The position numbers and the translations under genes are program-made. The notes under the pieces are model-generated. The model saw nothing but the letters and a program-made list of their open reading frames with translations. It was not told the origin of the DNA and did no database searches. A DNA stretch of 64,000 nt, taken from Flammulina velutipes. Its lineage: Eukaryota > Basidiomycota > Agaricomycetes > Agaricales > Physalacriaceae. The stretch's first letter is position 1. Every line of letters starts with the position of its first letter. The stretch lies in contig CM022368.1 of assembly GCA_011800155.1 (NCBI GenBank), positions 4,340,001 through 4,404,000 on the forward strand. Reading direction: 5' to 3'. This document shows positions 12,991 to 47,139 of this stretch, one piece after another.

Positions 12991-13379
12991 TTGATTGAAT
13001 CATACTCTGGGACGCAGGAGGAGTGTGCTTCAAATTTTACTATACCTTCAACTTCAAAGGGATAGGGTACGAGCGTCTTGTAGACTATGAAGGGGGACGC
13101 TGTCCATGTTTATTCTGAGGCCGCAATAATCAAGCAGATTATATGCACCGCGATGTAGGTGTCGCGCTAGGTCAGCCCCGTGTCACGCATGGGGTCGTAA
13201 CTCACACGTTGATTGAGATATATTTCGAGGAAAATGGGTCTCGAGGTTGGGCATCATTCCAAACACGAGGCTGCTGCTGTGAGCCTATAAGATTTCTGAT
13301 TCTGGCGCAGGCACAGCAGAAACGGTTCATGCATGAGGCGATAAAGAAAAATAAAAGACAATGAAGAGTGGTTTCAGTT

Positions 13380-13450
13380 GGACACTGTGAGGATTGAACT
13401 CACGACCTCACGCATGCGAAGCGTGCGCGCTACCACTGTGCCAAGTGCCC
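13380..13450 (-). tRNA. tRNA-Ala(CGC), copy 1
   Basis: 71-nt cloverleaf on the minus strand: 7-bp acceptor GGGCACT/AGTGTCC (one G-U pair), D-arm GCACAGTGGTAGCGC, anticodon stem CACGC/GCGTG with loop TTCGCAT (anticodon CGC), and T-arm GTGAG-TTCAATC-CTCAC. No intron. Identical copies are at 16623-16693 and 17837-17907. Confidence 0.93.
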
Positions 13451-13701
13451 ATAAAACTGGTGTGAAAGGCAGTGTTCATTGCGAGAGGGCGGCAAGAAGC
13501 CAGAAGATGATAGCGGGGCAAGATCGATATGTTTGCTTGGGAAAGGGCCATTCGTAGGCTACAGGACTGGAAGCAGACGGGGGCGCGAGAGCGGGGGAAG
13601 ACATGACGCGTCGAAACATGGAGCAAACGCGTCTTTCGGACCGCCGATCCGAAGAAGAAACTTGCGAACGTTTGATGGCTCATCGATCTCCTCTCTCCAC
13701 C

Positions 13702-16480: not shown

Positions 16481-16622
16481 ACTTTCCCGGAATACAGTAG
16501 CTTGATCAGACAGTGACAGCATCGTACCCATCACCTCTAAGCGAAGAAACGGTGAAACTTGAAGGATGGGGAGGATGAATACGACTTGGTCGCAAAAAAT
16601 GAACAGCCGCATTGTGTGAATT

Positions 16623-16693
16623 GGACACTGTGAGGATTGAACTCACGACCTCACGCATGCGAAGCGTGCGCGCTACCACTGTGCCAAGTGCCC
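16623..16693 (-). tRNA. tRNA-Ala(CGC), copy 2
   Basis: Identical in sequence to the 71-nt copy at 13380-13450, with the same cloverleaf and CGC anticodon. It faces the third copy (17837-17907) across the gene at 16941-17573. Confidence 0.93.
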
Positions 16694-16940
16694 ACGTCCG
16701 TTCCAATTCCCCAATAAGCCACAGCGCACCTCCACGACCTCTGTGGCGCTTTCTCGTTCCACAACACAACGGGGGAGGACACGTACCGCAACAGTCGCCA
16801 CAAAAAATCCTCCCCATAGCAAGTGTCACCCCCTCCGTCAAACATGACATCACACCCACATCGGACCTCCCCGGCCCGACCAAACACGAGTCACCCATGC
16901 ACTTACAGCACTTCCCCACCCACCTTCTCTTCTATCAACA

Positions 16941-17836: not shown

Positions 17837-17907
17837 GGGCACTTGGCACAGTGGTAGCGCGCACGCTTCGCATGCGTGAGGTCGTGAGTTCAATCCTCAC
17901 AGTGTCC
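17837..17907 (+). tRNA. tRNA-Ala(CGC), copy 3
   Basis: Identical to the copies at 13380-13450 and 16623-16693 but on the plus strand. A complete cloverleaf with anticodon CGC, no intron. Confidence 0.93.
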
Positions 17908-18105
17908 ATGATACCTGTAGTCCAATACTTTTTGCACTTTGCATTCCCTTCTCATCTCTTTCCTATTCACATTGGATGTTAGATTTGAGCCTCAATATGA
18001 GGGGAATTCGAAGAGAGAAAGATGAGTGAAGATTATCCAGAAAAAGGGGAGGTGCTCAAGAAAGACCATCATATGAAGTAGGCGGAGTCAAGCCTCTTTT
18101 CGTCT

Positions 18106-29575: not shown

Positions 29576-29664
29576 TCCCGCTTAGCTCAGTGGTAGAGCG
29601 CATCACTTGTATTCTAACGAATGAGTGCCATGATGAGGTCAGTCGTTCAACCCGGCTAGTGGGA
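29576..29664 (+). tRNA. tRNA-Thr(TGT) with intron
   Basis: Acceptor TCCCGCT/AGTGGGA, D-arm GCTCAGTGGTAGAGC, anticodon stem CATCA/TGATG. The loop starts CTTGTA with anticodon TGT, followed by an insert (TTCTAACGAATGAGTGCC) after position 37. T-arm AGTCG-TTCAACC-CGGCT pairs with one G-T. Confidence 0.87.
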
Positions 29665-29746: not shown

Positions 29747-30459
29747 TTAGGCAATGGAAGCGCCTTTGGGTCGCTGTTTCTTGAACATCTGACCAGCCAG
29801 TTTCCCACTGATGTTAACCTTGTGCGTCTCAGCTGAAATCTTCGCTCTTTTGACATTGCCCGCCACTATGATCCACATACTGTCTCGTCGCAGCTTCACT
29901 TTATATGTCCCGGGGCCAGATATCATGAAATCGTAGGCATATCCAACTAGACGATGGTGGTTCGATCGGTCGAGCGAGACTGACGCGAAGATTCGTACCT
30001 TGGAATGACACCGTCTTTCTCTCCCCTTTCCTCAAGGCGATCGTCGTCGCATGGGGTGATTGATAATTGGCAGGATCATCGTTGAGGGTCTCCTCGAGGT
30101 ATGAATCCAAGTCCCAGTTGACGCTCGCCCCGATGAAGACGGGCTGCATCGTTGTGGAATCACTCCCATTAGTCTCGCGCTCCCAAACCCATGCGTTGAT
30201 TGGTAAGCCGTCGAAGAGTGGGCCAGAGGGATCCTTGACGACGTCGTAGTCCACGTCGCTGGTATTCTCGAGCGTCAGCTCGATGTCGAAGGAACGGATG
30301 TCTGTCACAGATTCCGGGACTGCGGCGTGGTTAGAAAATACGAGACGAAATAACAAATATGCGATGACCTGATAAAGACACAGATAAAAGACCTTCCTCG
30401 GCGTCGAGGGTTCCAGGTGGTGGTGGGATGGTGGTGGTCAGTGGAAGAGACATATCCAT
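29747..30459 (-). CDS. stand-alone M35 propeptide-domain protein (no catalytic domain, no signal peptide)
   Basis: Three exons. Exon 1 MDMSLPLTTTIPPPPGTLDA lacks a hydrophobic core. After an intron: VPESVTDIRSFDIELTLENT, SDVDYDVVKDPSGPLFDGLP, INAWVWERET, FIGASVNWDLDSYLEETL, KGERKTVSFQG. After a second intron: YAYDFMISGPGTYKVKLRRD, SMWIIVAG, KVNISGKLAGQMFKKQRPKG and a stop. Every block matches the propeptide of the full-length M35 peptidases at 33378-35005 and 39017-40622 (e.g. DPSGPLFEGLAIDAWDWE, SAYDFTKSGAGTYSLKL), but the protein ends exactly where the propeptide would end. The insert between WER and FIG is short, without the Lys/Asp repeat. All introns are clean and the frame is open, so it is probably expressed. 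A broken sister copy is at 35712-36432. Confidence 0.75.
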
Positions 30460-30663
30460 CACCCGCTGATCCCCGTAGATGATGTCGGACTGAGCTCGAG
30501 ACGTATATTGAGTTCGCGATCACGTGTATATTTCTTGAATCATTCGCGCGGCACTTGAAGTAGAAACTCCAATTACATTGATAATTATTACAGACAGCGT
30601 TGAGCGAGATGTTTCATATACATGCACTGGCAATTAATGATACAGGATTCCAAATTTCAGCTC

Positions 30664-31403
30664 TCAGCTTGAAGGCTGGGCGTCCAACCAGTTCTCGAAG
30701 AGTTTCTTGCATCTCTTATGATGCTTCGTCCAGTTGTTGATCATGTAGACACCGTCGAGGTTCCGGATTTCGTAGCATCCGGCGCACCTCAACTGCCGTT
30801 CATTGACAATCTCAGCGACGCTTGGGTCATCGAGGAATGCTTGCTTGCGTGCCTCCGCGCTGACGTTCTTCGGGAACTCTGGGAAGGATGCAACGTATTC
30901 TGCGAAGCGCTTGTGGCTGCTGTTGCTCGTGATTTTTTGTGTGTCTTCTTTCTTCAATTTTTTCTTGGGCGGTCTACAAGAAGATGAGAGGTGGAAGTCA
31001 GAAGTAAAGGACTGGACGCACTTGACATCTTCAACCTCGTTCGAATCGACGTTCACTACACTTTCTCTAGCTCTCTTTTGGGCGCGCGTCCTCGATGCAG
31101 GCTGGGCCGTGGGCTGCGCTTCTTGGGCTGGGGCTGGAGGTGGGGCGAGAGGTGGATTGACTATAAGGCCATCTCTCATTTCCGTGAGGGTAATTGCGGC
31201 TCTATTATCATAGGTCAGCTTCGACGAAACATAGTAGGAAACATCTATTGACGTACTCCAACATTTCTCTACCTCCTTCTTCCTGTAGCAAGACGGCGAT
31301 GTTGGCGAATTGGCGGCATTCAATGCTAGAGATTCAGAAGAGGTTAGCTCAGCAGTGGAAAAGAGGGGAGGGTTACACACTTGAGGAAAAGGTCGGCGGA
31401 CAT
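30664..31403 (-). CDS. putative zinc-binding protein, CxxC...HxxxC family, type I (copy 1)
   Basis: Exon 1 MSADLFLN, then IECRQFANIAVLLQEEGGRE, an intron, AITLTEMRDGLIVNPPLAPP, a Pro/Ala/Gln linker, the basic segment RTRAQKRARESV, an intron, PPKKKLKKEDTQK, then the C-terminal domain EYVASFPEFPKNVSAEARKQ, FLDDPSVAEIVNERQLRCAG, CYEIRNLDGVYMINNWTKHH, KRCKKLFENWLDA. The conserved C-x2-C ... W-x2-HH-x3-C spacing suggests a zinc finger; the preceding basic stretches look like nuclear localisation signals. Hence a nuclear, possibly DNA-binding protein (inference). It is the close counterpart of 42482-43229 and stands back to back with 32034-32703. Confidence 0.75.
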
Positions 31404-32033
31404 GATTATAGTGTGGAATTCAGCAGTAGAAGAGTCGCTTATAAAAGGCCAACTCTCCGGGAGCGCGGTACCAATAGGGAGGGTGTCGAACAATGGAAGC
31501 TAGGACCGTCGAACGTCTCATTGTGTCCCCACGCGTCCACAGTGGAAGATCGGCTAGCCGAGACGTTCGCCGAATTTCTGTAATACGCCAAGCACCCGAC
31601 ATACTTAGGCATCGAGGTACTCGTAGATGAGTAAACAACCTTACACAGATAATATGCTGGGCGCCCTGTTACGTGCCAGCAGACAGTCCGACATTTCCTC
31701 GATATGTGGCGTTGACTTTGCCAGCTTCTACACTAGTCATATGTTATTATCAGCAATATTATTGTCAGCTACAAAAGCAGCTATATTATCAGCGTTGAAT
31801 GAGGCAACTCTGCGGAGGCAGTACATCCCTGGTCCTACGAAACACGATGTGGCGTATTTCAATTGCGTCGGACACGCGGGAAACTGGACACAATCATGTT
31901 GTAAAACGGACAAACAATGAATTTATGGATGGCCATAGCGTCCATTGTTCATGCAGCTTTCAGCGCGCGCCCACCCCACTACTTAAGGAGCTGCCGGATA
32001 CCAGCTACTCTCTATATTTCCCCCATCGCAGTT
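31404..32033. other. intergenic region between two divergent zinc-finger-family genes
   Basis: About 630 bp shared promoter region. The equivalent region in the inverted copy is 41988-42481. The two regions have diverged strongly; only short words such as GCGTCCATTGTTC / ACGTCCATTGTCG can be matched. No further gene is seen. Confidence 0.5.
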
Positions 32034-32703
32034 ATGTCTTCCTTCGAGTACGAGTAAGTTCCCTTCTATCCCGTCTCATCTATTGGTTGACTGACTTGTC
32101 CCCAGGACTTTTGAAGAGCCCAAGACCAAATTCGAGGTTCTCCTCCAAGTGGCTTACTGGGCAAATCAGCTGGAAAAGGCTAAGTGCGTTCCGTTATTCC
32201 TTGCGTCAATTTCTGTCTTGCTGACATAAATAACAGAGCCGCGTCCGAAGAGGTCATGAAATCCATCGTCGACGAGTCCGAAGAGCCGCCCAAGCCCAAG
32301 AAGCGCGCACTGAAGAGAGCGCGTGAGGTCACTGTCGATGAGGAGCAGGACTCCGATGAGTATGTTCTCCCTCTTGTCGCTCAGGTTTCAACATCTCATT
32401 CAATTACCTAGACCACCGAAGAAGAAGAAAAGCCCAGGAGCCAACAAGAAACACGTTCTTTACCTTTCCTACCTCAACACCTTTCCAGAATTTGAAGGGA
32501 AGATGAATGAGAAGATGCGCAAGCAGGCCTTGCTCGACGATCGTTACATTGGAAAGATTATCGATAAGCGGCTGGTGCAATGCGCGGGATGCAAGCAGAA
32601 CCGAAAGCTCGACGGAGACTACGCTTGGAATAACTGGAAGCACCATCGCCAGAATTGCAAGACTCTCTTTGAATCCTGGCTGGAGGAGATACGCCTCGAT
32701 TAA
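32034..32703 (+). CDS. putative zinc-binding protein, CxxC...HxxxC family, type II (copy 1)
   Basis: Exons: MSSFEYE; TFEEPKTKFEVLLQVAYWAN, QLEKAKA; ASEEVMKSIVDES, PKPKKRALKRAREVTVD; and the terminal exon PPKKKKSPGANKKHVLYLSY, LNTFPEFEGKMNEKMRKQAL, LDDRYIGKIIDKRLVQCAGC, KQNRKLDGDYAWNNWKHHRQ, NCKTLFESWLEEI. It has the same C-terminal putative zinc finger as the type I genes but a different N-terminus. The basic runs suggest nuclear import. The frame is intact, with GT-AG introns in conserved positions. Counterpart in the inverted copy: 41336-41987. Confidence 0.75.
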
Positions 32704-32854
32704 TGTGTTCCGCATCGCTTTATCTTTGTTACATATTTCTCTCGTCTCTTTGATTTGTACTATGTCTATGCCGCAATATATGTATATGCCTAATCATTTA
32801 AAGACAACACTCAAATGATGGAGGCACAGGTCTTCCATTTACCTCTCAACCCAC

Positions 32855-32945
32855 TACGCCACTAGAGTCACGAGGTCTGAAAGTACCGCGGTCCACTTTT
32901 GTTCGACTTTGATTACCTACCACCATCACCCTGTTGCCTGCAAGG
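32855..32945 (+). repeat. dispersed short element, copy 2
   Basis: Matches 3175-3285: GTCACGAGGTCTGAAAGTAC, CGCGGTCCACTTTTGTTCGA, CTACCACCATC. It lies just outside the 3' end of a zinc-finger-family gene; the third copy lies in the equivalent place of the inverted arm. Confidence 0.7.
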
Positions 32946-33377
32946 ACAACAACATCACTTCTATACTCGTGCTCGAACAAGCGCATACAATCTTTCCAGG
33001 CTGACACGCTCGACGACGCGCTCAACCGGCACCGTCCGGACGTATCAGCCCAGTATTCCATTATTTCCTCAGACATCTACCCTACTCAGAGCATTAGTCT
33101 AACCTTTTGTTGACGGTGCATTCCGACAGCCATTGAGACTACATTGCATTCGATTGGAGGTGTATGTGCTTCCCCGACCGCGCGGAAAGACTCGGACTTG
33201 CGCCACATTGGAATGAAAATATCTCAAGACTGTGGCGCTTGCCATCACGTTGTTTCTCTAGCCCTGAACCTTCTCCACGGGTTTGCATTTGTTCGCTGCA
33301 AAGTAGATTCCAAACTTCATGGTAAGTCTCTGAACGATCTTCATTTTCAATGACATATTCCATCTCGAATTTGTAGA

Positions 33378-35005
33378 CTACTCCCTATTATCCCGATTTT
33401 CAGAGAAGAACCTATAGTTGTTCGCACTCTGCGCTGCCACCTCCGGGACATTCGCAGCCAGTGCATGTGTCCCTGCCATATCTCTGTAACCTTCATGATC
33501 CTCCGACTTGGCTACATCGTGGAAGTGGGACGCCTCATGGACGAGAGTGCCCGCACGAGAGTTGTGTCCGGAATTGGGTACGGCGTCGCCCCAATATAGG
33601 TTGCATAGGTTGATCACTGGTTTAGGTTGTTCGTTATACCTGTGCGCGTGTCAAGGGTATACAGAACAACATCGAAAGGGGGACGTACTTGGCGCCGACG
33701 ACGAACGCGATGACATCGAACTCGCAATCGCAGTCGTACGAGTAGCCGGAGACGAATCGGCGGGCTCTCATGGCTCTATACGCGCGGATGACATGATCCC
33801 TGACAAGCAGAGCCTGATTAGGAGCCGCTCGGTGGTGGTCCCATGCGCCAAACCACCATTCATAACGAGCGCGCGAGGTGGAATCCGTCGTCAAATATCT
33901 ACAGGATACTGATAAACCGACACGTTCGAACAGTAGGATTACACTCACGTGTATGATTCATCAGCGTAATCGTCCGCTGCTGCTGCAGAGAGCTCGATGA
34001 TACCAATTTGGGCTTCGGTGCATTCTTCCGTGGTGACGGCCCTCTTGTCCAACGTCGAAACTTCCCGTCTTGTCGTGGTGGTGACGGCTTTTCCAGCGAG
34101 CTTACCGGATATCTTGACCGACTGCTTGGGAACTGTCACCTTCACCTCTTGTGTTGTTTTCCCTTTGTCGAACGTGATCCAAAGAGTCTCTCTAGCCAGC
34201 TTCAAGCTGTAGGTTCCAGCACCGGATTTCGTGAAATCGTAAGCGGATCCAACTTTACGCAGGGCTATCAGCTCAACGCTCAAAGGACCAAGTCGCATAC
34301 GCACCTTGATATGTGATCTTTGTCGAAGCTCCCTTCTTCAGCGATATCATCTTCTTATTGGCTTTCTCAGCGGCGCGCTTTTCTTTCTTTGCATCCTTGT
34401 CCGCTTTTTCATCCTTCTTCCCGTTCTTCGAGTCCTTACCACCCAGCGCCGGTGTCGTCTTGGATAGATAAGAGTCTATGGTCCAAGCGACGTAGGCCCC
34501 TATGAATTCTGGTTCTTTCGTGTTGGCTGGTAGGACTTCGGGCTTTCCCTTGTCTTTGTCCTTGCCATCCTTGTCCTTGTCCTTTCCGTCCTTGTCTTTT
34601 GTCTTGTCCTTTCCGTCCTTGTCCTTTGTCTTGTCTTTCGCAGGCGTCGCCCTCTCCTTATTCTTCGTCGAACCACCCTTGGTCAGCTCCCAGTCCCACG
34701 CATCGATAGCAAGGCCCTCGAACAGAGGGCCCGATGGATCTCTAACGACGCTCAAGTCCTTGTCCCCGGTGTTCTTCAACGTGAGTTCTATGGCGAACTT
34801 GCTCACGTCTGATACCGTTGGGGGGACTATTTTCATGACATCAGCACCCGTATGAAATATTGAGGGAATATTGAAGACCTTTTAGTGTCATGGATAACGG
34901 ACCAGCCGTTTTGGGAGCGCGTGCGAGGGGAGTGGCGTAGGCATGTATGACCAGCAGACATGCTGCGCCGATGAGGACGCGTCGGGATGGGAGGTGGAAA
35001 GGCAT
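33378..35005 (-). CDS. secreted M35 (deuterolysin/Mep-type) metalloendopeptidase, full length, copy 1
   Basis: Zinc endopeptidase of the aspzincin clan, made as a secreted preproenzyme. The start MPFHLPSRRVLIGAACLL gives a signal peptide ending near ATPLARA. The propeptide starts PPTVSDVSKFAIELTLKNTG, then DPSGPLFEGLAIDAWDWEL, a 50-60 residue KDKDGK repeat, EFIGAYVAWTIDSYL, a second Lys-rich stretch, and SAYDFTKSGAGTYSLKLARE. A dibasic LDKRAV (kexin-like) site precedes the catalytic domain, which begins CTEAQIGIIE. Catalytic motifs are HEASH (coding bases 33525-33539) and the third-ligand region SEDHEGYRD in place of the usual GTxxDxxYG. It ends FFSENRDNRE at 33378. All introns are short and the frame is open throughout. 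It is the mirror image of 39017-40622. Confidence 0.88.
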
Positions 35006-35064
35006 TTTGGTGGATGACCTTTAGAGATGGGTTTCTGTCATACTTATACTGGCTTTTTTGAACG

Positions 35065-35285
35065 CCCGAGCGACGAGTTGCTACATAAATTCCACCTCAT
35101 TTGAGCGAGCCGTACGAAGTACCGCCTGCTAGCATGCATATATGGCACCGCACTTGTAGAATGGATCATATCGGAGCGACGAGTTACTACCTACTACCCA
35201 AATTTCACCTCATTTGAGCGAGCCCTACGAAGTAACGCCTGCTAGCTTGCATATATGGCACCGCACTTGTGGAATGGACACCGCG
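35065..35285 (+). repeat. tandem duplication of about 105-110 bp upstream of the M35 gene
   Basis: GCGACGAGTT followed by CACCTCATTTGAGCGAGCC, GCCTGCTAGC and CATATATGGCACCGCACTTG appears twice in succession. The front part occurs a third time, inverted, at about 38895-38950 upstream of the other full-length gene, so it belongs to the duplicated promoter region. Confidence 0.8.
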
Positions 35286-35711
35286 ATGTCCTGACAACGG
35301 AATTGGCCTGCCTCAGATGACTATCCCGAACGTTAACGTTATCAGTTGCTGTCTGTCACACTCTGGCTATTCCGCCTCAGGCTGGTAAGTACTAAGGTAC
35401 TTTTAGACCGCACATCAGGGATCCGTCATAACGCCGCCTGGGATCTGCGATCATTTAATTGTAGTACATACGCCACGGGTATCAAGTTTCCGTCGATCGA
35501 GCTCACTTGGTCGTTCTGTTTCCTCGACTCGGAAGCTTTTCAGGTTTTTCCATCGCGCTCTGAGGCCTGAAGCGTTGGAGGTATTGCCCTGAATACTACC
35601 CCTCGTTGATAGTTGACGATTTGGCTCACCTCTGGACCATGCTTTTGTCAATTATCCCCGGTCTAAGTTTACGTCTCAAATCATATCTCCGCTTCAGTGG
35701 CTACAGTACTG

Positions 35712-36432
35712 TTACGCATTGGAACTACCGTTTGACCGTTGTTTCCTGAATTCCTGACCAGCCAGCTGCCCACTAATATTCACCTTGTACGTCTCAGCTA
35801 AAATATTCACTCTCTTCACATTCTTCGCCACTACGATCCATAGACTGTCTCGTCGTAGCTTCACGCCATATGTCCCGGGGCCTGAGTTCCTGAAGTCGTA
35901 CGCATATCCAACTGGACGGTGTTAGCTCATCAATGACAACGGCGCGGGAGGGAGATTCATACCATTAAATATCACCGTCTTTCGCTCTCCCTTCTTCAAG
36001 GGAATCGTTGTTGCGTGAGGTGATCGATAGTTGAGGGGATTCGTTGAGCGTCTCTGCGAGGTATGAATCCAAGTCCCAGTTCACGCTCGCCCCGATGAAG
36101 TCCGGTCTTTTCGTCATCAACAAATCATTATCACTCTGGCGCTCCCAAACCCATGCGTTGATTGGCAAGCCGTCGAAGAGGGGCCCGGAGGGATCTTTGA
36201 CGACGTCGTAGTCCTGGTCGCTGGTATTTTCGAGTGTTAGCTCGATGGCGAAGGAACGGATGTCTGTTATGGATTCTGGGACTGTGGCGCAGTTAGGAAT
36301 GTCATACTGGAATGGGACTGTCCGCTGACCTGATACAGAAACTGCTAGGAAGACTTCTTCTGTGTTGGATGACATTGGTAGAGTGGTAATGGTGGTGGCG
36401 ATGGTGGGGGTCAGTGGATGAGAACGGTCCAT
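35712..36432 (-). pseudogene. stand-alone M35 propeptide-domain gene, frameshifted copy
   Basis: Same architecture as 29747-30459: no signal peptide (MDRSHPLTPTIATTIT), VPESITDIRSFAIELTLENT, DPSGPLFDGLPINAWVWERQ, FIGASVNWDLDSYLAETLN, then the continuation one frame over: LNYRSPHATTIPLKKGERKT. After an intron comes YAYDFRNSGPGTYGVKLRRD, LAETYKVNISGQLAGQEF and a stop at 35712. Compared with 29747-30459, two bases are missing at about 36040, which shifts the frame. Either the copy is dead or the assembly has a small error. No catalytic domain follows. Confidence 0.65.
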
Positions 36433-36960
36433 CAACCACCTGGATGGAAAGGCACGCCCAACGCAGGAACAAAGTACATCAGAGCTGTATCACAACTTTC
36501 TGTACTGTAGTTGGTTACTATGTTTAGTTGCAGCTCCTCGGGCGCAGTTGATTATTAGCTTAGCGCTGGGGAATGGTCGTCGAATAACTCGACTGGAGGT
36601 AAGTACCTTTACAGCCGGTTGAAAGCGGTAGCCGTGAGATACTCGTATTCTAAGCAACGCATCTATCTTCGTACACACGCTTACGCCCCATGCAGTCGCC
36701 GCCAGAAGAGCGGGCGCGTTCTATACATTGGTAAAGGGTGATCAGTTTTCTCGAAGTCCTTTGCATGACATTCGTAAACCACAGTCCCGCCAACGTACGC
36801 GGAAGCATGATCGTCGAGCTGGACAATGGAACCGCTTACAAAGCTGTGACCACGGACCGGGGTCCGAAACCCTTTCTTTTTCTCTTACGGCCACCCTTTC
36901 TGCGCCACACGATTTGGAGCAGCATCGTTGACATACATCGTCGTATCGTTTGAAGATAAG

Positions 36961-37466
36961 ATGTCCGACACTGAACAGCAAAACCTGGACGTGAAGCCTG
37001 AGCAGGATGCCAACGCGCCCATCAGCATCAAGGTAGCTCATTTTCGACGTTGCCCGCGCGCACAGGCGCTCACTCCTTTCTAGGTCGCTGCTTCCTCAGG
37101 CGAAGAGGTCTTCTTCAAGATCAAGCGCAGCACAAAGCTCAGCAAGCTCCAGGGCGCCTATGCTGGCAAGATAGGAAAGGATGTGGGCAGTATACGGTGC
37201 GTCCTTCCCCTCTTTGCCGACAGCCTTGCCGACTCGCCTTCTACAGCTTCCTCTACGACGGCACCAGGATAGCCGACGATGACACGCCCGCGTCTTTGGA
37301 TATGGAAGACAATGGTGCGTTACATCCCGTCTTGCTTCGCGCTTGTCTGACCTTGGCGTCTTTGCAGATACAATCGATGTTATGGTTGAACGTACGCCTT
37401 TCTCTCGCTTTCTCCCGTTTCTATCGCTAACGTGTCATTTCAGAGGTCGGAGGGTGTCCATGCTGA
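36961..37466 (+). CDS. SMT3: SUMO (small ubiquitin-like modifier)
   Basis: Ubiquitin-like modifier that is conjugated to lysines of many nuclear proteins. Five exons give MSDTEQQNLDVKPEQDANAP, ISIKVAASSGEEVFFKIKRS, TKLSKLQGAYAGKIGKDVGS, IRFLYDGTRIADDDTPASLD, MEDNDTIDVMVEQVGG, then a short CPC tail and stop. The flexible N-terminus, the FKIKRSTKL strand, RFLYDGTRI, EDNDTIDV and the di-glycine (to be exposed by a SUMO protease) are diagnostic. Length about 100 aa, normal for SUMO. It is an essential single-copy gene in most fungi; here it lies in the centre of a large inverted duplication, between the two copies of the protease arms. Confidence 0.93.
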
Positions 37467-37646
37467 GCAAACAGCGCTTCCTTGTACTATAACCCCACCC
37501 GTCCTGCAATGTAACCCTCCTACCTACACCTCATTGTTTCGCCCAAGTTTCTAATCCATTTCTTGCCCAATCATCTCTCCTTGTGCCAGGGCAAACATTT
37601 TTCTTAGCCCAATGGTAGAAGTCGCGATACCTCGTGATAGGCCGAC

Positions 37647-37715
37647 TTCGCGCTTAGGCATACGGGTATGACTCGTAAGCGCGAAACACCTACGGCTGCG
37701 ATAAGCTCATCGCAG
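37647..37715 (+). other. two adjacent perfect hairpins downstream of the SUMO gene
   Basis: TTCGCGCTTA at 37647-37656 pairs with TAAGCGCGAA at 37676-37685, with a nested CATAC/GTATG stem in the loop. A second hairpin CTGCGAT-AAGCTC-ATCGCAG covers 37696-37715. The structure is stronger than expected by chance, but no known RNA family is recognised. Could be a small structured RNA, an mRNA 3' element or the end of a former mobile element. Confidence 0.5.
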
Positions 37716-39016
37716 ATCCTTCCCTGGACGTCAGAGCACTAGTTTCCGTCCTGAATGCCCTTTGTCCAACCTCAAGTCGCCGTCCCGTCTTTGCTTCATG
37801 CCGAAAATCTTGCTTGACTGTCGTACGATCATGTTCTCCAACGCTTGCGTGCTTTCGTACCACAGCTTCATCGTACGCAGGTCCCACTTTATGAGAAGCC
37901 GTCGGTGCAAGACATCTTTGTTGGACCCCATCCTACAGAGAGATATCTTCACCTTCTACGAAGTTATCCGCTGCGCTGTTTTCTTCTTATCTCTGTAGCC
38001 CATTGCCATACCATTGCCCTTGGAGTCTACTTTGAAGGTTGACGCAGCCGTCGTCTTGGAGTACGAATTTATTATGCAATCGACATCGTACGCGGGAAAC
38101 CATGGATCATCCACGGGCAGACATTTTCAACATGTGGCGAAGAAGGAATTCGAGCACCCTTTACCAGTACGCAAAACGACCCTGTTGCTTCGTAGATGGC
38201 CGCGTTTCACTATTGGAGGAAGTACTACATTCTCACGATTACCCTTCATTCGATTCAACCCCAGTCGAGCGCCTCGTCCAGTTCGGTGAGCACGTTAAGC
38301 CTATGATCAACTGCGACGCAAGAGCAACGACTACCAGACGTAATATCTACATACAGATCGTGGTGGTCCTCAATTCTGATATACTCTACTATCTCCATGA
38401 TTAGGCCGGTTCAGATCTACTTCTCCTACCAACAACCACGACCCTCGTCCTAACGAAAGCCATGTTGAAGAGTGTATTCTGTGGATGCAATATTACGCTA
38501 GGGGAGGATTTCTGACCTGATTACCACGAAATACGCCACAGTTCCAGCTATAGCTATCCCTTCCTCGATAATACCACGCGACATCTGGTGGTACTGTTGG
38601 ACAAGCTCAAAATAGATATCAAATTCGGGAAATGAGACCGACAAGCTGAGCTCGATCTGCAGAAACCCGTCGAGTTTGATTGATTGCAGATCTAGACGGT
38701 ATCGTGGCGGATCACTGATGTGCGAAAAGTAACTACTCGGTCTGAGAGCGCCTGAGTCTACCACTCGTGTCAGCAGCTAATAATAGGATTAGATATTCAT
38801 CTGTATGTGTTGAGGATTGAGAATTGTATATGTCGCCAGGACATTCAGCGCAAATACAGCGGTAACATAGTACAACGTTCTGGGATATGTAGTAGCTTGC
38901 GACGCGCTCGAATGAGGTGAAATTTGAGTAGCAACTCGTCGCTCCCTCAGTAAACTAGGCGTCCAAAAAGCTAGTATAAGTACGAGAGAAAGCCAGCTCT
39001 AAAGTCATTCAACAAA
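37716..39016. other. stretch without a supportable gene
   Basis: Short frames on both strands (for example around 38040-38400 on the plus strand with PRADIFNMWRRRNSS) overlap without forming a convincing exon chain or a known motif. The last 130 bp before 39017 are the inverted counterpart of the region upstream of the other full-length M35 gene and probably hold its promoter. Confidence 0.4.
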
Positions 39017-40622
39017 ATGCCTTTCCATCTCCCATCCCGACGCGTCCTCATCGGTGCAGCATGTATGCTGGTCATACACACCTACGCCACTCCCCTCGCA
39101 CGCGCTCCTGGTCCGTTATCTGTGTCGATAAAAGGTGATCAAAACTTCCTTCAAGTCGATCTTATGGTACCGACGCTGACAGTAACATAGTCCCACCAAC
39201 GGTATCGGACGTGAGCAAGTTCGCAATCGAGTTGACGTTGAAGAACACTGGGGATAAGGACTTGAACGTCGTTAGAGATCCATCTGGGCCTCTGTTCGAA
39301 GGGCTGGCTATCGATGCGTGGGACTGGGAACTTGCAGGTGGTGCGAAGAAAAAGGTAAGGGCGACACCTGCGAAGGACAAGGCGGGAAGGACAAGGTCAA
39401 AGACAAAAGCGGAAAGGATAAGGACAAGGATGGAAAGGACAAAGACAAGGGAAAACCCGAAGTCCTACCAGCCAACACAAAAGAACCAGAATTCATCGGG
39501 GCGTACGTCGCTTGGACCATAGACTCATATCTATCCAAGACGACACCGGCGCTGGGCGGTAAGGATGGTAAGGACTCGAAGGATGAAAAAGCGGACAAGG
39601 ATAAAAAGAAAGAAAAGCGCGCAGCTGCGAAAGCCAGTAAGAAGATGATATCGCTGAAGAAGGGAGCTTCGACAAAGATCACATATCAAGGTGCGTGGTA
39701 TGCGACTTGATTGTTTGAGCGTTGAGCTGATAGCTCTGCGTACAGTTGGATCAGCTTACGATTTCACGAAATCCGGTGCGGGGACGTACAGCTTGAAGCT
39801 GGCTAGGGATACTTTGTGGATCACGTTCGACGAAGGGAAGACGACGCAAGAGGTGAAGGTGACCGTTCCCAAGCAGTCGGTCAAGATTTCGGGCAAGCTC
39901 GGTGGGAAAGCCGTAACCACGACAAAGCGACAAGCATCGACGCTGGATAAGAGGGCTGTGACGACGGACCAATGCACTGCAGCCCAGATCCGTATCATTG
40001 AGCAGTCTGCAGCAGCAGCAGATGCGTACGCTCTTGAATCATACACGTGAGTGTCGTCCTGGTGTTAGAATATGCTGATTGAACGGATTATCCTGTAGGT
40101 ATTTGACGACAGCTTCCACGTCTCGCCCTCGTTACGAATGGTGGTTTGGAGCATGGGACCACCACAGAGCGGCTCCTAACCAGGCTCTGCTTGTTAGGGA
40201 TCATGTCATCCGCGCGTATAGGGCCATGACGCTCCGGTCGTTCGTCTCCGGATACTCCTACGACTGCGATTGTGAGTTCAACGTCATCGCGTTCGTCGTC
40301 GGCGCCAAGTAAGCCTTCTCCAAATGTCAACTGCGCATATCTTAACATGAGAACTTGAAGGTTCAACGAACAACCTAAACCAGTCATCAACCTCTGTAAC
40401 CTGTTTTGGGGCGAGACGGTACCGAACTCTGGGCACAACTCCCGCGCGGGGACGCTCATCCACGAAGCGTCGCATTTCCATGATGTGGCGAAGTCTGTGG
40501 ATTACGATGAGTATAGGGATATGGCTGGGACGCATTTGCTTGCTACTGGTGCCCCGGAGCCGGCAGCGCAGAGTGCGAATAATTATAGGTTCTTTTCGGA
40601 GAATCGGGATAATAGGCAGTAA
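39017..40622 (+). CDS. secreted M35 (deuterolysin/Mep-type) metalloendopeptidase, full length, copy 2
   Basis: Mirror copy of 33378-35005. Start MPFHLPSRRVLIGAACMLVI (signal peptide), intron, PPTVSDVSKFAIELTLKNTG, DPSGPLFEGLAIDAWDWEL, a Lys/Asp/Gly repeat, EFIGAYVAWTIDSYL, SAYDFTKSGAGTYSLKLARD, the LDKRAV processing site, mature start CTAAQIRIIEQ, RPRYEWWFGAWDHHRA, SYDCDCEFNVIAFVVG, GTLIHEASHFHD (HEASH coded at 40461-40475), SVDYDEYRD and the end FFSENRDNRQ. Inside the repeat (about 39376) the frame changes by one base. This is either an indel or an unusually short 35-nt intron from GTAAGG to GGGAAG, which would restore the frame. All other introns are normal. If the shift is real and unspliced, this copy would be dead. 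Confidence 0.8.
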
Positions 40623-41069
40623 GTAGGCTGTTAGGCTTTGTTAGATATGGCATTGTAATGCATATGATTTCGAGCCTTACGATGTGCGAGTATTGGATTC
40701 ATGGTTATGAGGGGGAAGTGAGGACTGTTAAGTCTTCGTGAGTGCTTGCTATGGGTTGCATGGATAGAAACTAGAGGGACTGGAAGTCATGATATTGATG
40801 AACATCATGCGGAAGACACGTACCTCAGAGAATGTTTTCGAGACCTTAGTCGCCGGAAGGCTTACTAACGGAAGCTAAGTCGCTTGAATAGGCCACAATA
40901 TGATAGCAGAGCAAGCCAGAACATAAGTGATTCTCCCAGTGGTCAATAGCCCTTGTCGAGCCTTTGATAGCCTAGAATAAGCGTTTGAGGCATTGGAAAA
41001 CACGTTACATGAATCAAACGTAAGCATACTAGAAGGGCGATATAAAGGGTCCGTGTCGATGAAGCCAAT

Positions 41070-41150
41070 GGTCATGGTGGTAAATGATCAAAATCGAACA
41101 AAGTGGACCGCGGTACCTCCCGACCTCGTGACTTTGGTGGCGTAAAATAT
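41070..41150 (-). repeat. dispersed short element, copy 3
   Basis: Reverse complement matches 3175-3285 and 32855-32945: GTCACGAGGTCGGGAGGTAC, CGCGGTCCACTTTGTTCGAT, TTTACCACCAT. It lies 3' of the zinc-finger-family gene at 41336-41987, mirroring copy 2. Confidence 0.7.
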
Positions 41151-41335
41151 GACGCGGTTCAGAAGTAAATGGCCGCGTTAGGCATCCATATTGTAACTCA
41201 AGTTAAGTCTGGATATATATCTGTATGCAATTGGAATATATACATCATGATATCTTCCACTACATTTGTAGTACAAGCTCGGAGAGAAGAGGAGAACGGG
41301 GATGGTATCATACATATAGATCATCGTGCCATCAC

Positions 41336-41987
41336 TCAAGCGTACCCTTCTTCTTTCAACCAGGTTTCAAACAGAACCTTGCACTTTCGGCGATGATGTC
41401 TCCAGTTATTCCAAAAGTAGTCTCCGTCGAGTTTTCGGTTCTGTTTGCATCCCGCGCATCGCACTAGCCGTTTATCAACAATCTCCCCAACGTAGCGATC
41501 GTCGAGCAAGGCTTGTTTGCGCATATCCTCGTTCATTTTCTTTTCGAATTCGGGAAAGGTGTTGAGGTAGGAAAGATAAAGAACGTGGTTCTTGATCGTC
41601 TTTGTTGATTTCCTTTTTGGCGGTCTATATGGAATGGAACGTTTAGTCTCTGAGATATGAGGGAGAACATACTTTTCGATGTCTGGTTCCTCCCTGTCGG
41701 CAGTGTTCCGCGCTCTCTTCAGAGCACGCTTCTTGGGCTGTGGCTCTAGTACGGATTCCTTCAAGGCTCCTGAGCTTGAAGCGGCTCTGTTAGTTCATAT
41801 CAGTCAAACGCAATGGATAAGATAAGGGTGGGAACTCACTTGGCTTCTTCCAATTGCTTTGCCCAGCAAGCCATCTGGACGAGAGCCTCGAATGGGGTCT
41901 CGGGCTTCTTGAAGGTCCTGATGGCATTGATTAATCGGTGGATGACACGGAGAAGATGGGGGCATACTCATATTCGAAAGATGACAT
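41336..41987 (-). CDS. putative zinc-binding protein, CxxC...HxxxC family, type II (copy 2)
   Basis: Counterpart of 32034-32703 in the inverted arm. MSSFEYE, TFKKPETPFEALVQMACWAK, QLEEAK, KPKKRALKRARNTADREEPD (starting from PKKRAL), then PPKRKSTKTIKNHVLYLSYL, NTFPEFEKKMNEDMRKQALL, DDRYVGEIVDKRLVRCAGCK, QNRKLDGDYFWNNWRHHRRK, CKVLFETWLKEE. Frame and intron sites are intact. The strong conservation of the finger region against a drifting linker suggests purifying selection on the finger. Confidence 0.75.
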
Positions 41988-42481
41988 CGTTTCGAACGGG
42001 GAAAGGTTTGGAGAAACCATTTGCTAGACCGGGCGGAGTGGCTAGGTTCAGTTGAAGTTGTTACTTTAAAGCAATGAACGTTGTGGTCTTCCCAAAGGTC
42101 ATCTTATATGCCTTTCGAAATACTAACGTGACATATGACGCCTCGTGCGCGATGCACAATTGATTGCGCCACACCTTCTTTCGTTAGATAGGGACGTACC
42201 ATCGGCTTTAACATAGACCAGCTCAAGAATTAACAGCGATAGCAACCCCGTCATTCATTCTATGTTTTACCTTCCCTCATCGTTCGTTTTGATAGGACCA
42301 TGACCTAGAGAGTACTCTGGAAAGCGGGTTTAAATCCCCGCCAATCATTCATTGTGGACGCATGTGGGCACTACAGGGTGTTAGATGGTCGTAACGTCCA
42401 TTGTCGGTTCAGATTCCGTATTTGGATGGCCCATACCGAAAGGACTTTCATCATAAGCAATATTTCCACTCGTACACCATC

Positions 42482-43229
42482 ATGCCCACCGGCGAAGTTC
42501 TCCCCTAGTGCGTATTCCTACCTTGCTTCCGAATGCTAGGTTTAAGATCTTTTAGTATCGATCTCTCCGGCTGCCCGCTCTTGGCATTCGCGAACATTGC
42601 CCTCTTGCTAGAGGAAGAAGGAGGACGTGAGATATTGGAGTACGCCACTGAATCGCCCGGACCCGCATCTTGCCGGTACTGACATATACTTTGATAGAGC
42701 CACCGCCATCAAGCAGAAGTCAAACCAAACACTGATTACCAATAAAACCCTCCAAGTACTATTGGAGCCTCAAGTCCAGCTAGAGCCCAATGCGAAGACG
42801 CGCCAGCAGAAGAGAGCTAGGGAAAGCCTGGGAGGTATAGACAACGACGTCGAAGAACTCAGGTGCGTTACGATTACCGACTCCTTACCCGCGTCTCATC
42901 ATCAAACATGCAGACCACCCAAGAGGAAGTCAAAAGCGAAGAAAGACGACACGGAGAAAGTGATGAGCAACCTTCATCATGAGCTGTTCCACGAATTCGT
43001 CGCATCCTTTCCCAAATTCCCGAAGAACGTCACCGCGGATAGACGCAGGCAAGCATTACTTGCTGATCCGAGCATTGGTGAGATCGTCAATGAGAGGCAG
43101 GTGAGATGCGCTGGATGTCATCAAGTTAGGAACCTCGATGGTGTGTACTTTGTGAATAATTGGACGAAGCATCATCAGAAATGCAGGGGGCTCTTTGAGA
43201 TTTGGTTGAAGGCCCGGGCTGCGAGTTGA
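42482..43229 (+). CDS. putative zinc-binding protein, CxxC...HxxxC family, type I (copy 2)
   Basis: Counterpart of 30664-31403. MPTGEVLPYIDLSGCPLLAF, ANIALLLEEEGGREILE, an intron, ATAIKQKSNQTLITNKTLQV, KTRQQKRARESLGGIDNDVE, an intron, PPKRKSKAKKDDTEKVMSNL, FHEFVASFPKFPKNVTADRR, RQALLADPSIGEIVNERQVR, CAGCHQVRNLDGVYFVNNWT, KHHQKCRGLFEIWLKA. Its start codon is 494 bp from that of the divergent type II gene. Same putative C-x2-C...HH-x3-C metal site and basic nuclear-localisation-like runs as the others. Confidence 0.75.
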
Positions 43230-43498
43230 GAGCTACAGATTGGGTGCGGATTAAAGTTGACGTTGTAGTTATAGTTGTCTTCGAATCATCATTTGTCTAA
43301 AACGGCACCGCGCGCCACTGATGGTTTTGACCCACTTATCCAGGCTGCAGTCCACGCTGTACATACTAATTTAGCACACAGTAATATCTAGAGAAGGCGT
43401 CTCTTAGTATATGTTGTTTATATGACTGCCAAAGATATGAGGGGAAGTTGGTGCATGGTTGAGCTAGGGTGATAACATAAATCGTGGCGCCTTGCCGG

Positions 43499-43732
43499 CT
43501 AATAGTCCAATTTCTTCGACACTATTCTGCCCTCTTCATCTTCCGTTTCAAGCGTTATAGTAATCTCCGATGCCTCCAACGACTCCCCTCTTCTCTTCCT
43601 GTTTCTGTTTCTGGTCCTGTTTATAGCGCGCTGCGCCACAATGGTTTTGCCTGCAGCGGATGGTGATGGGGTATCTCCGGGAGGCTGGTCCTCATTGGAG
43701 CGTACTTGTGGATTATGAGTCCTCGATGACAT
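43499..43732 (-). CDS. small basic protein of 77 aa, paralog of 1620-1853
   Basis: Starts MSSRTHNPQVRSNEDQPPGD and ends GRIVSKKLDY; shares the centre AAGKTIVAQRAINRTRNRNR and an ITITLETEDEE stretch with the copy at 1620-1853. Exactly the same length (77 aa) and an intact frame. Together with its downstream flank it is part of the inverted duplicate of the first 1.9 kb of the window. Function unknown. Confidence 0.55.
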   Translation of the reverse strand: MSSRTHNPQVRSNEDQPPGDTPSPSAAGKTIVAQRAINRTRNRNRKRRGESLEASEITITLETEDEEGRIVSKKLDY

Positions 43733-44237
43733 GGTTGTATGGGATGTGTGAGTGGCTGAAGTGAGGGGATGTGGTGGGTGATGGATATGGATATGGACAT
43801 TGCTGTGTATTTCCCAGAGTTATAAAGAAGAACAATGACAAAAGAAGATACATATCCGGCTGTGTACGTTGACACACAGATTACAAGCGCTACCGCCTTG
43901 AGTAATCAGTGGCACGACAAAGCTGTAAATGTTGCATATGCTGTGATGCTTTCCGTGCCCAGTTATTGATCGAATGTGGTGTAGTTCACTCAAATATCTA
44001 TTATCATTGGATGATGGACGTGGAATGTAAAGTAAGTAGCGATTGTGACGCGCCACAATTTTGCCGGAGATCACCGATGCCGCTGATCGCATTCTGCCCG
44101 GGGGCCAGCCATTCCCAAGGTCAACGTCCATGAGCTCCGCGCATTCGGTTCGCGTCTCGCTCGCTGGTCTAATTTTAAACGCAAGAATTGGATTGTGCCA
44201 CACCTCGAGCAAACATCAACATTTTTTGGTGGTCGAA

Positions 44238-45267
44238 ATGCCCAACATTCAAGCCGCGTCCGTTTTTCATAATTTTGAGCAGTAGGTGTGTCTCCTTCCC
44301 TTCTTCTCTTGCATAAGAAGCTCTAACGTGTCTGTAAAGGGATACTTTCCATTTCAAGGCATCGTGTCAAGACCCATGGCCCTCAGCGGTAGATCTGGTC
44401 TTGAAAGCCTCATTGCCTGCTACAACGAGGGTTTTCGTCGAATGTGCTCACCAGGAGAATACGTTGGCTAGAGCGCGCCCCGAGACGCGAAGCAGTGACG
44501 GGCAATGGATAATGAGGACAGCAGACATCACTGTGTGTGTATTTTTTGTGTTTCTGTTCTTGCGCTTGCTCAACTCCTTTCTAGTCCGATGGAAGCAGAA
44601 CTGTTGACTCTTGTCGTTTATGAAGAACACAATCGTCGGAAACTGGGCTGAGCCTATCTAGATCTGGAAGATCTATGCAATAATCCGCGTACAGGTAGAC
44701 CAGCTTGTTCTTGACCGGGCCTCATATCCTAACAACCTCCCTAGACATAACGACGGACGTCGAAGATACATCGGTCCAAGTTGCCTTCGATGCGGCCCCA
44801 TATCCTTCACCAAGTTCCTCCTTGCGCAATGCACCTCCTGCACCAAACTTCAGTACGTTGGTTTACCTCCATCGTTGACTAGGAACTGACCGCTATCTAG
44901 ATGACAGCGACGAAGAATTTGTCAAATCGATGAACCACCTAGTTTCAATGTCCATACATGGCAACGTTCGACTCCCCTGGACAGGACTGTATTCACCATT
45001 CAAATGCGAATCCTTTTCCATGTAGCGCGTCTGGGCCTCCTGTCCAATTTCGCTGTTATAGATTATATGTGTTCTAGAGGGTGCTATGAGACGGCTTCGG
45101 TGCAGTCTTTGAATACTCTACACGAAGACTTCCGGATAGGCATCCAAGGAAGACTTTCCGCCTTTAGGCCCGGGCCTTGGGAGATGCTTTTACCGACACC
45201 AACTCCTACAGCTGGGGGTTTCGTTACTCGAAGAGGCCGGACATGTACGGCCGTTTGGCGCGCTTGA
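44238..45267 (+). pseudogene. decayed copy of the unidentified duplicated gene (copy b)
   Basis: Plus-strand match to the reverse complement of 1-1091: MPNIQAASVFHNFEQ then a stop, ASLPATTRVFVECAHQENTL, WIMRTADIT, MEAELLTLVVYEEHNRRKLG followed by a stop, DDSDEEFVKSMNHLVS, CSRGCYETASVQSLNTLHED. In-frame stops in at least two exons argue for a pseudogene. Downstream (45268-46230) the sequence carries only overlapping frames, for example a Ser-rich one at 45537-45794. Confidence 0.5.
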
Positions 45268-46230
45268 CCGCCTGACGCTGGCGAAAGGCGCTTCGTGACA
45301 TTGCCGAATTGGATAAAAGGGTCACGAAGCGCTAGCGCACATCCAGCCGGACGTCACAATCTTGTCAACACGTTGGTTCGGCTTCCAGTCTCGAGCTGAC
45401 TTGGACGGGGGATTGAAGTACGCGTTGGATTTGGCGGGGAGCGAGTCGTAACCGTGCGTTTTGCGGTGGAGGACATGAAGGACGACTTGGAGAGGGCGAT
45501 TGTGCTGGTAGACGATCATCCTTCGACGCTGGGCAGTTGGATGCCGGTTCGCATCAATTGTCAGACTCGACTCCCGTTGGCTCAACCGACGAGCATATAT
45601 CGTTCGGTGTTAGCATGCATGACTCAATGTGGAAGACGCCCAGGACTGAGCCTATATCTTTTTCGAAAACCTCCCGATCTTCTGGAAATCGTGCGTCTCG
45701 TAGCCACCATGTACTGGCAATCGGCTGCGGAAGCTCTTCAGGATCGTCCTATGCAGATGATAGCAGTTCGCACGGGGATGAATATCCTTACTAGCACTGC
45801 TTGGCTGGGTCTACCGTCGCAACGCCTTTATGAAACCAGCGTCCCAGGATATGGGCTGGAGACTCCATCTGTTGCAGAGCGCCATCGAAGGGACTGCCTT
45901 CGAGTAGCTCGAGAAAGGGCGTTCGGTTGCATGTAGTCAGATGTCGCAGCTTCGTGCGCTGTTTGATGTTATTGGAAGTGTGGATGCGGGGCTGGCGAAG
46001 CGATTTGGAGAGTTACGACTTTGGAAACGGAGATGGAGGGACGACGCAGCTAGCGAGTGGGGAAGGTTCGCCAGGTACAAGGCATTTGGCGACGCGGGGA
46101 GGGTCTGGAGAGGAAGTGATTCGGCTGAGAGAGGAAGTGTGTCGGAGGGAACTGATAATCATTTAGGATAAAATGTGAATTACATTTGACTGTGAGCATA
46201 ATGGCGGCGCCACATCTTTAGTAAACATAT

Positions 46231-47139
46231 CTACTGCCTATTATCTCTGTTCTCTGAGAAGAACCTGTAATTGTTAGCGCTCTGTGCCGCCACCTCCGGG
46301 ACGTTGAGCGCCAGCGCATGAGTCCCGGTCATATCGCGATAGCCATCATGATCCTCGGACCTCGCCACATCATGAAAATGAGACGCTTCGTGGATCAACG
46401 TGCCTGCACGCGAATTATGCCCAGAATTTGGAACGTCTTCACCCCAGAATTTATTGCAAAGGTTGATCACAGGCTTCGGACGTTCGTTGTACCTGCTTCC
46501 GTATAAGTAGGTGTACGAGGAAGCTTTCAAGAAAGGACATACTTCTCTCCAGCAACGAAAGCGATCACATCGAATTCGCAATCACAGTCGTATGTGTATC
46601 CCGACACGAAGGGACGCGTCACCATAGCCTTGTACGCATTCTTAACATGCGTCCTAACGAGCTCGTTGTCGTTGGGGGGCTTTCGCTGTTGGTCCCACTT
46701 TCCGAACCACCATTCGTATCGAGGCCGCTCTCCATCGCCTTCGGCTGTCATGTACCTATCATTCCGATTCATCAGTGTCATGATCATAAGGAGGCGAACA
46801 CATTCTCACTTATAAGACTCGGCGGCATATTCGTCTGCGGCTATGGCCGAGAGCTCAATGATAGAGATTTGCTTTGTGGAACATTGTTCGGTTGAGACTT
46901 CCGATAACGGCGCTCGTCTCTCGTTTGTGGGAGGTACTCCTCCTGAACCTGTAATCAGGTCGGTTTCATTGAAAGGGGCTGCATCGACGTCATAATGGGA
47001 TATTCCTTCTATGGGATGAGGTGTTACCTTTGACAGATACGGATTTGTTCACGGCTGTAAGCGGTGTGGCGTAAGCGTGCATGACCAGCATGCAAGTGGC
47101 GCCAATGAGAACACGTTGGAAAAGAAGTTGGAAAGACAT
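46231..47139 (-). CDS. M35 metallopeptidase lacking the propeptide domain
   Basis: Signal peptide MSFQLLFQRVLIGATCML...YATPL, then TAVNKSVSVKG, an intron of about 80 nt, a short linker SGGVPPTNERRAPLSEVS, and the catalytic domain from TEQCSTKQISIIELSAIAAD, RPRYEWWFGKWDQQRK, SGYTYDCDCEFDVIAFVAG, GTLIHEASHFHD (HEASH coded at 46378-46392), SEDHDGYRDMTGTH, ending FFSENRDNRQ. The roughly 220-residue propeptide domain present in 33378-35005 and 39017-40622 is missing as a unit; the join falls where that domain is bounded by introns in the other genes. The reading frame is intact, so the product should be secreted as an almost mature enzyme. An Arg-Arg pair in the linker could still be a processing site. 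Confidence 0.8.

Follow-up and report, generated by a model that had tools for sequence, protein, structure and literature searches.

Can the propeptide of a protease persist as a gene of its own, and what would such a gene do? The question is raised by a cluster of genes related to M35 metallopeptidases in Flammulina velutipes, in a window of 64,000 nucleotides (nt) of contig CM022368.1 (G000:C1:4340001-4404000; genome of 38.1 Mb in 23 contigs). Next to two genes with the layout of complete zymogens (M35A and M35B), the window contains two genes reduced to the propeptide (proA and proB) and one in which signal peptide and catalytic domain are present and the propeptide is missing (catC, with a sister, catD, beyond the window). 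The genes proA and proB were protein-coding and under purifying selection for most of their history. Tentatively, with a probability of about 0.42, we propose that proA is an intracellular trans-acting inhibitor of M35 enzymes, a selected descendant of a zymogen propeptide, and that catC and catD separately lost theirs.

Two bare propeptide genes

The gene proA, with three exons, encodes an open, bare M35 propeptide, and its stop lies within the exon that in zymogen genes continues into the enzyme. No Pfam family is matched by proA and the catalytic domain is absent. The N-termini of M35A, M35B, catC, and catD reach 2.6–3.0 on our own simple hydrophobicity score (which is not SignalP); on that score no signal peptide is detected in proA (0.8) and none is found in proB (1.2). 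In a scan of the 1.5 kb upstream, there are no candidates for a signal exon of proA. For proB, the same scan gives 34 splice combinations, and the six listed all use one weak start (score 1.9). Cysteines occur neither in proA and proB nor in the M35A propeptide.

The two genes have in common a new N-terminus inside zymogen exon 1, a stop inside zymogen exon 3, and the tail. Both stop ahead of the catalytic part and are thus not M35 peptidases in the sense of containing a catalytic domain; they are, in sequence, homologues of the attached M35 propeptides. Over aligned codons, proA is 44% identical to the propeptide of M35A. With three distant rows set aside, 28 residues are conserved at 85% or more across 32 attached propeptides, and 27 of these 28 near-invariant residues are present in proA, likewise 27 in proB. 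The overall propeptide scores are 0.77 for proA and 0.75 for proB (attached propeptides: mean 0.79, minimum 0.63). With introns at the homologous places, exon 2 of proB is out of frame and ends on a stop; if the donor is moved 13 bases upstream, the spliced aligner finds an open reading in which about 20 residues are altered. The original prediction of two propeptide-only genes without signal peptide therefore holds in full for proA, whereas the frame of proB is broken.

Adjoining proB, exons at 37002-37427 (+) match the SUMO-like domain PF11976, in one frame above the cut-off and in another below it. Beside proA, at 29576-29664, there is a weaker Rfam tRNA match that ARAGORN does not call.

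Selection on the split genes

Rates of nonsynonymous (dN) and synonymous (dS) change were obtained by Nei-Gojobori counting with bootstrap ranges, for proA/proB over 200 comparable codons. In this pair, dS is 0.57, dN 0.18, and dN/dS 0.31 (0.20–0.46). The ratio is 0.32 ahead of the frame break of proB (109 codons) and 0.35 past it (81 codons, 0.16–0.68). For catC/catD, dS is 0.79 and dN/dS 0.22 (0.14–0.31); for M35A/M35B, with an extra intron assumed in M35B, the values are 0.50 and 0.14 (0.10–0.20). The identity between proA and proB is 0.70, 0.81, and 0.80 in the exons, 0.58 and 0.55 in the introns, and 0.41 and 0.38 in the flanks. The contrast is less even between M35A and M35B, with 0.79–0.92 in the exons and 0.56, 0.90, 0.74, and 0.48 in the introns.

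On the dN/dS values and the conservation of exons relative to introns, both proA/proB and catC/catD have evolved as coding genes. Since proA and proB were constrained for most of their history, the frame break in proB is either a recent event or an assembly error.

Enzymes without propeptide

The gene catC has four exons. They encode a signal peptide, then what is left of the first strand of the propeptide, whose body is missing, and, past an RR site, the catalytic domain. A first intron of 49 nt (exon 2 from 46978) is better than one of 79 nt, and either reading is open. About 46 kb beyond catC, catD has the same layout (signal, remnant, and catalytic domain, no propeptide), so that catC, predicted as the only catalytic-only gene, is confirmed in its architecture and is not the sole one. 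In both genes, the missing stretch runs from a few codons past intron 1 to inside exon 3. The linker ahead of the processing site is common to the two, and the simplest history would therefore be a single deletion followed by duplication. No hidden propeptide relic beside catC and no catalytic relic beside proA rises above background, and the weak propeptide- or catalytic-like matches elsewhere in the window are at background level. A protein search with catC for propeptide-less M35 enzymes returned no hit at all at E 1e-5 among 272 candidates, a result uninformative on other fungi.

Recombinant RcMEP2-2 (M35 domain) is reported to cause necrosis like the full-length protein (PMC7215534). This suggests that the propeptide is dispensable for the action of an M35 domain. 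Both catC and catD are probably active as enzymes.

Gene models and the zymogen genes

Introns of the M35 family were modelled with a spliced aligner (permitted length 40–130 nt; one locus was modelled twice). The 158 introns modelled across the family have a median length of 53 nt, the shortest being 44 nt. All five gene outlines of the original prediction are confirmed, with GT-AG introns at homologous places in all five M35-related genes (Table 1), and the intron positions that remain in the split genes are conserved. The donors of intron 1 in these genes depart from the textbook form. The breakpoints, thought at first to fall at introns, lie inside exons in these models.

Table 1. Coordinates of the M35-related genes (window positions; catD on contig C1)
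Gene	Description	Position	Strand	Exons and remarks
proA	Stand-alone M35 propeptide gene, intact	29747..30459	-	30459-30369, 30319-29999, 29946-29747; 203 aa
proB	Paralogue of proA	35712..36432	-	36432-36330, 36281-35963, 35911-35712; frame shift in exon 2 at ~36042-36030
M35A	Intact zymogen gene	33378..35005	-	Five exons, 474 aa: signal, propeptide, catalytic domain
M35B	Paralogue of M35A	39017..40622	+	Frame break at ~39355-39400, in the Lys-rich linker of exon 2
catC	Intact signal + catalytic gene	46231..47139	-	47139-47028, 46978-46810, 46755-46543, 46492-46231; 251 aa
catD	Sister of catC, beyond the window	C1:4432829-4433730 (L039 1830-2731)		L039 = C1:4431000-4436500

M35A encodes a signal, a propeptide with a Lys/Asp-rich insert, processing sites, and a catalytic domain with HEASH. 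Pfam PF14521 matches M35A and catC with 68.4 and 70.9 bits (cut-off 30), and the HEXXH motif is present, as HEASH, in the translations of M35A, M35B, catC, and catD. At the GTXDXXYG motif, the Asp of M35A aligns with that of Grifola PKM (the third zinc ligand), although the surroundings, SEDHEGYR, differ from the motif. M35B can be read in frame only with an assumed additional intron of some 35–41 nt, to be compared with the shortest modelled length given above. Two full-length genes had been expected; M35A is one, open throughout, whereas the frame of M35B is broken here.

The propeptides of M35A and M35B have long Lys/Asp-rich inserts (34350-34675 and 39335-39650) that are mostly absent from the other aligned M35 propeptides. 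Given that the family has Lys-specific members, these inserts could be a stretch for self-cleavage. Just upstream of M35A (35067-35278), there is a tandem duplication of 99 bases (87%), part of which recurs upstream of M35B. Between the M35 genes, four copies of a small Cys/His-containing protein family occur, at 30664-31419 (-), 32184-32703 (+), 41336-41794 (-), and 42612-43229 (+). They form inverted pairs, 74% and 84% alike, and the three whole-frame copies tested have no Pfam match at E 0.01. Elsewhere in the window, three tRNA-Ala (CGC) genes with equal Rfam score (13377-13451, 16621-16694, and 17837-17908) lie within 4.6 kb.

The M35 family across the genome

Searches of the genome gave at least 53 matches to the M35 catalytic profile and, with proA, at least 89 matches at E up to 1. 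These fall into 47 positional clusters, with both parts in 37, the catalytic part only in 7, and the propeptide only in 3 (proB is inside the M35A cluster). Three of the both-part clusters have two M35 genes each, which leads to at least 47 catalytic units in the 38.1 Mb, many of them on contigs C5, C6, and C8. In Rhizoctonia cerealis, four M35 are reported (PMC7215534). Of the seven clusters with the catalytic part only, three (L001, L002, and L059) turn out on spliced alignment to have an upstream propeptide, with scores of 115, 91, and 80 (window background maximum 61; the catalytic part of L059 comes solely from the genome profile search). A propeptide is in place for 43 of the 47 catalytic units. 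The four units lacking one are catC, catD, C5:698086, whose propeptide ends some 2.1 kb ahead of the catalytic part, and C7:2139613 (with stops inside). Conversely, the propeptides without enzyme in the genome are proA and proB, plus a chance-level match on C9.

That match, C9:1898679 (E 0.49), was set aside as a candidate stand-alone propeptide. So was C5:694880, where the front half of an M35 gene is followed by about 2 kb of other sequence before the catalytic part. At L040 2311-5817 (C5:694810-698316), the propeptide and catalytic parts of an M35 gene are about 2.1 kb apart, with other sequence between them.

Relatives elsewhere and origin

A protein search with proA gives one match at E 0.001, P0001, a metagenomic prediction of 153 aa. 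It is identical to proB at 100 of 110 aligned positions of exon 2 and is in frame where proB shifts. P0001 reads through intron 1, as expected of a prokaryotic gene caller; the third exon and the stop are outside the prediction. Over the coding parts that were compared, two other sequences, P0002 and P0020, agree with propeptides of the present genome, so that this species, or a near-identical one, is present in public metagenomes. Since P0001 differs from proB, it comes from another strain or species.

A profile search for propeptides gave 40 hits, of which 24 were examined. Fungal proteins are among the hits, which, like the short introns, agrees with a fungal source. Six named fungal sequences of 200–280 aa without PF14521 label (P0005, P0007, P0008, P0011, P0013, and P0023) were rejected: each reads on into the processing site or the catalytic domain, and they seem to be ordinary M35 genes whose models are truncated. 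The metagenomic P0015, with a signal-like start, ends right past the propeptide and could be cut by an intron. The check for propeptide-only M35 genes in other genomes that the original prediction proposed thus yields the open metagenomic P0001, and no named species among the 24 of 40 hits. The claim that bare M35 propeptides exist as genes is borne out by the purifying selection, the kept propeptide core, and this relative with an open frame.

In the propeptide tree, P0001 pairs with proB (99/93; 97/84 without three distant rows), and the duplication into proA and proB is therefore older than the split between P0001 and proB. The three sequences form a clade (100/100) outside a group of six rows made up of M35A, M35B, three genes of L041, and L023 (95/93; 94/91 without the three distant rows); the nine rows come together with 94/81 and 86/79. 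The catalytic tree has 36 rows, two of them catD; there, catC and catD (97/89) are sisters of M35A/M35B (together 100/99). On these positions of proA/proB and catC/catD, the two split layouts would have separate origins, and the trees favour two events, an older release of the propeptide and a later propeptide loss. The fission of a single M35 gene, with fast change thereafter, was considered and is not favoured by the trees, but the approximately unbiased (AU) test, with proA/proB forced together with M35A/M35B, does not reject it (p 0.18 and 0.14).

Proposed function and alternatives

We propose that proA descends from the propeptide of an M35 zymogen and now stands alone, as proB did until its frame was lost. 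On this view, the line leading to proA dropped its signal peptide together with the catalytic half, after which purifying selection preserved the rest. The product would be soluble and probably cytosolic, in keeping with the absence of cysteine and of a detectable signal. There it would most likely block M35 enzymes in trans by binding to their catalytic domains, in the way an attached propeptide does in cis. Such a brake, comparable to the cytoplasmic Pbi2, would act on M35 enzyme in the wrong place or active prematurely. The propeptides of PKM-type M35 enzymes have been described as inhibitory, and cleavage at a Kex2 site is reported for some of these enzymes, not for that of G. frondosa (PMC11985622). 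The fold model of a fungal relative, P0012, matches AsaP1 zymogens (its catalytic part is modelled poorly). In this proposal, catC and catD would have lost the propeptide separately and been kept as secreted M35 enzymes. A wider formulation, in which the zymogen was taken apart, the freed propeptides became a new family of intracellular metalloprotease inhibitors, the sister M35 genes were freed from self-inhibition, and control moved from cis to trans, seems doubtful.

Several points weigh against an inhibitor. M35 enzymes are secreted, so that their encounters with an inhibitor in the cytosol would be rare. The frame of proB is broken in the present assembly, and the longer branch of proB in a three-sequence codon tree (0.56 codon changes vs. 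0.26 for proA) may mean relaxed constraint. A second proA in a named species is lacking among the hits examined. The match to an IPI-like fold is unspecific, and IPI itself is reported as ineffective on metallopeptidases (PMC3901451).

The broken frame and long branch of proB would also be expected if proA and proB were functionless front halves of M35 genes in decay, with proA to follow proB. Their truncated architecture, the fast turnover of the M35 family, and the M35 gene split by an insert at L040 agree with such relics. On the other hand, the dN/dS of 0.31 has been kept over a dS of 0.57, with a start and a stop older than the duplication, and is equally low past the frame break; introns and flanks are far less conserved than exons, and both proA and P0001 are open. 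Decay is accordingly rather unlikely. It is likewise questionable whether proA is a selected binding module and no inhibitor, that is, a detached Ig-like domain kept for another protein contact, for example as a cytosolic scaffold. Ig-like folds are general binders (the fold matches also include unrelated adhesion and complement domains), and the absent signal sets proA and proB apart from the secreted M35 enzymes; yet the residues conserved in attached propeptides are almost all kept, and both genes sit inside an M35 cluster.

In a trans-acting chaperone, as envisaged in the original prediction, proA would assist the folding of the propeptide-less catC and catD, the zymogen having been split into two genes. 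Both halves are indeed in one cluster and constrained, and the AU test leaves room for a single origin. This role fits poorly, since no signal peptide was detected in proA and proB, which leaves no classical route into the endoplasmic reticulum, whereas catC and catD have one. With the trees placing proA/proB outside the M35A/M35B group and catC/catD as sisters of it, a chaperone is improbable. A misread gene structure, in which proA or proB is joined by splicing to an exon for a signal or a catalytic part, or catC has a propeptide exon that was overlooked, is very improbable: M35A is on the same strand 706 bases downstream of proB, and the intron 1 donors are unusual, but proA and proB have the same in-frame stop, no signal exon appears within 1.5 kb of proA, and the searches for relics beside proA and catC found nothing above background.

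Comparison with known systems

The closest known relatives are the propeptides of M35 zymogens (peptidyl-Lys metalloendopeptidases, AsaP1), with a domain homologous to proA (44% identity for that of M35A; 27 of 28 near-invariant residues kept in proA). Unlike them, proA has its own start and stop and lacks signal peptide, processing site, and catalytic domain. Free propeptides acting as inhibitors are found in other protease families. Crammer and the related I29 cathepsin propeptide-like inhibitors illustrate a freed protease propeptide serving as inhibitor, as proposed for proA; they target a cysteine protease family and their fold is unrelated to that of proA. In Plasmodium, SUB1-ProM is reported as a stand-alone subtilisin propeptide-like inhibitor of SUB1 whose gene adjoins subtilase genes (PMC6993865). 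Like proA, it is a small free propeptide-like gene beside genes of its protease family. It differs in the serine protease family, the fold, the presence of a signal peptide, and the meeting with its enzyme outside the cytosol; also, inhibition by SUB1-ProM has been measured, whereas that by proA is predicted.

Pbi2, described as a cytoplasmic inhibitor of vacuolar protease B (PMC10512327), and POIA1 belong to family I9. They are free propeptide-like proteins, as is proA, and Pbi2 is also a cytoplasmic fungal inhibitor; their fold is that of subtilase propeptides. No I9 profile is among the Pfam matches, and proA and proB are instead homologues of M35 propeptides. For the I9 proteins, no significant similarity in sequence to the propeptides that they imitate is reported, and a convergent origin has been suggested (PMC6993865). 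In contrast, proA is plainly, in sequence, a paralogue of propeptides that are still attached.

IPI of B. subtilis (BsuPI, family I22) is described as acting on subtilisins (PMC3901451). Its profile, PF12690, has no match in the genome at E up to 10 (B. subtilis, among 14 controls, did match) and is absent from the Pfam matches of 12 propeptides. A kinship of proA with BsuPI was therefore set aside as lacking sequence support, and the likeness may be one of common fold only.

That a stand-alone M35 propeptide would be without precedent agrees with the open-access literature searched, where no M35 case was found and where most subscription papers fall outside. Free propeptides as inhibitors are already known for subtilases and cathepsins; what is new here is the protease family and the plain descent in sequence.

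The M35 family, expanded in this fungus, is linked to plant infection and includes the Lys-N enzymes of proteomics. A signal-less M35 propeptide under selection would surprise a specialist and is directly testable, and catC and catD are natural material for asking whether M35 enzymes can do without a propeptide altogether. Should proA indeed inhibit M35 enzymes, the gene-encoded inhibitors of metalloproteases would gain a new kind, one clearly descended from the protease's own propeptide.

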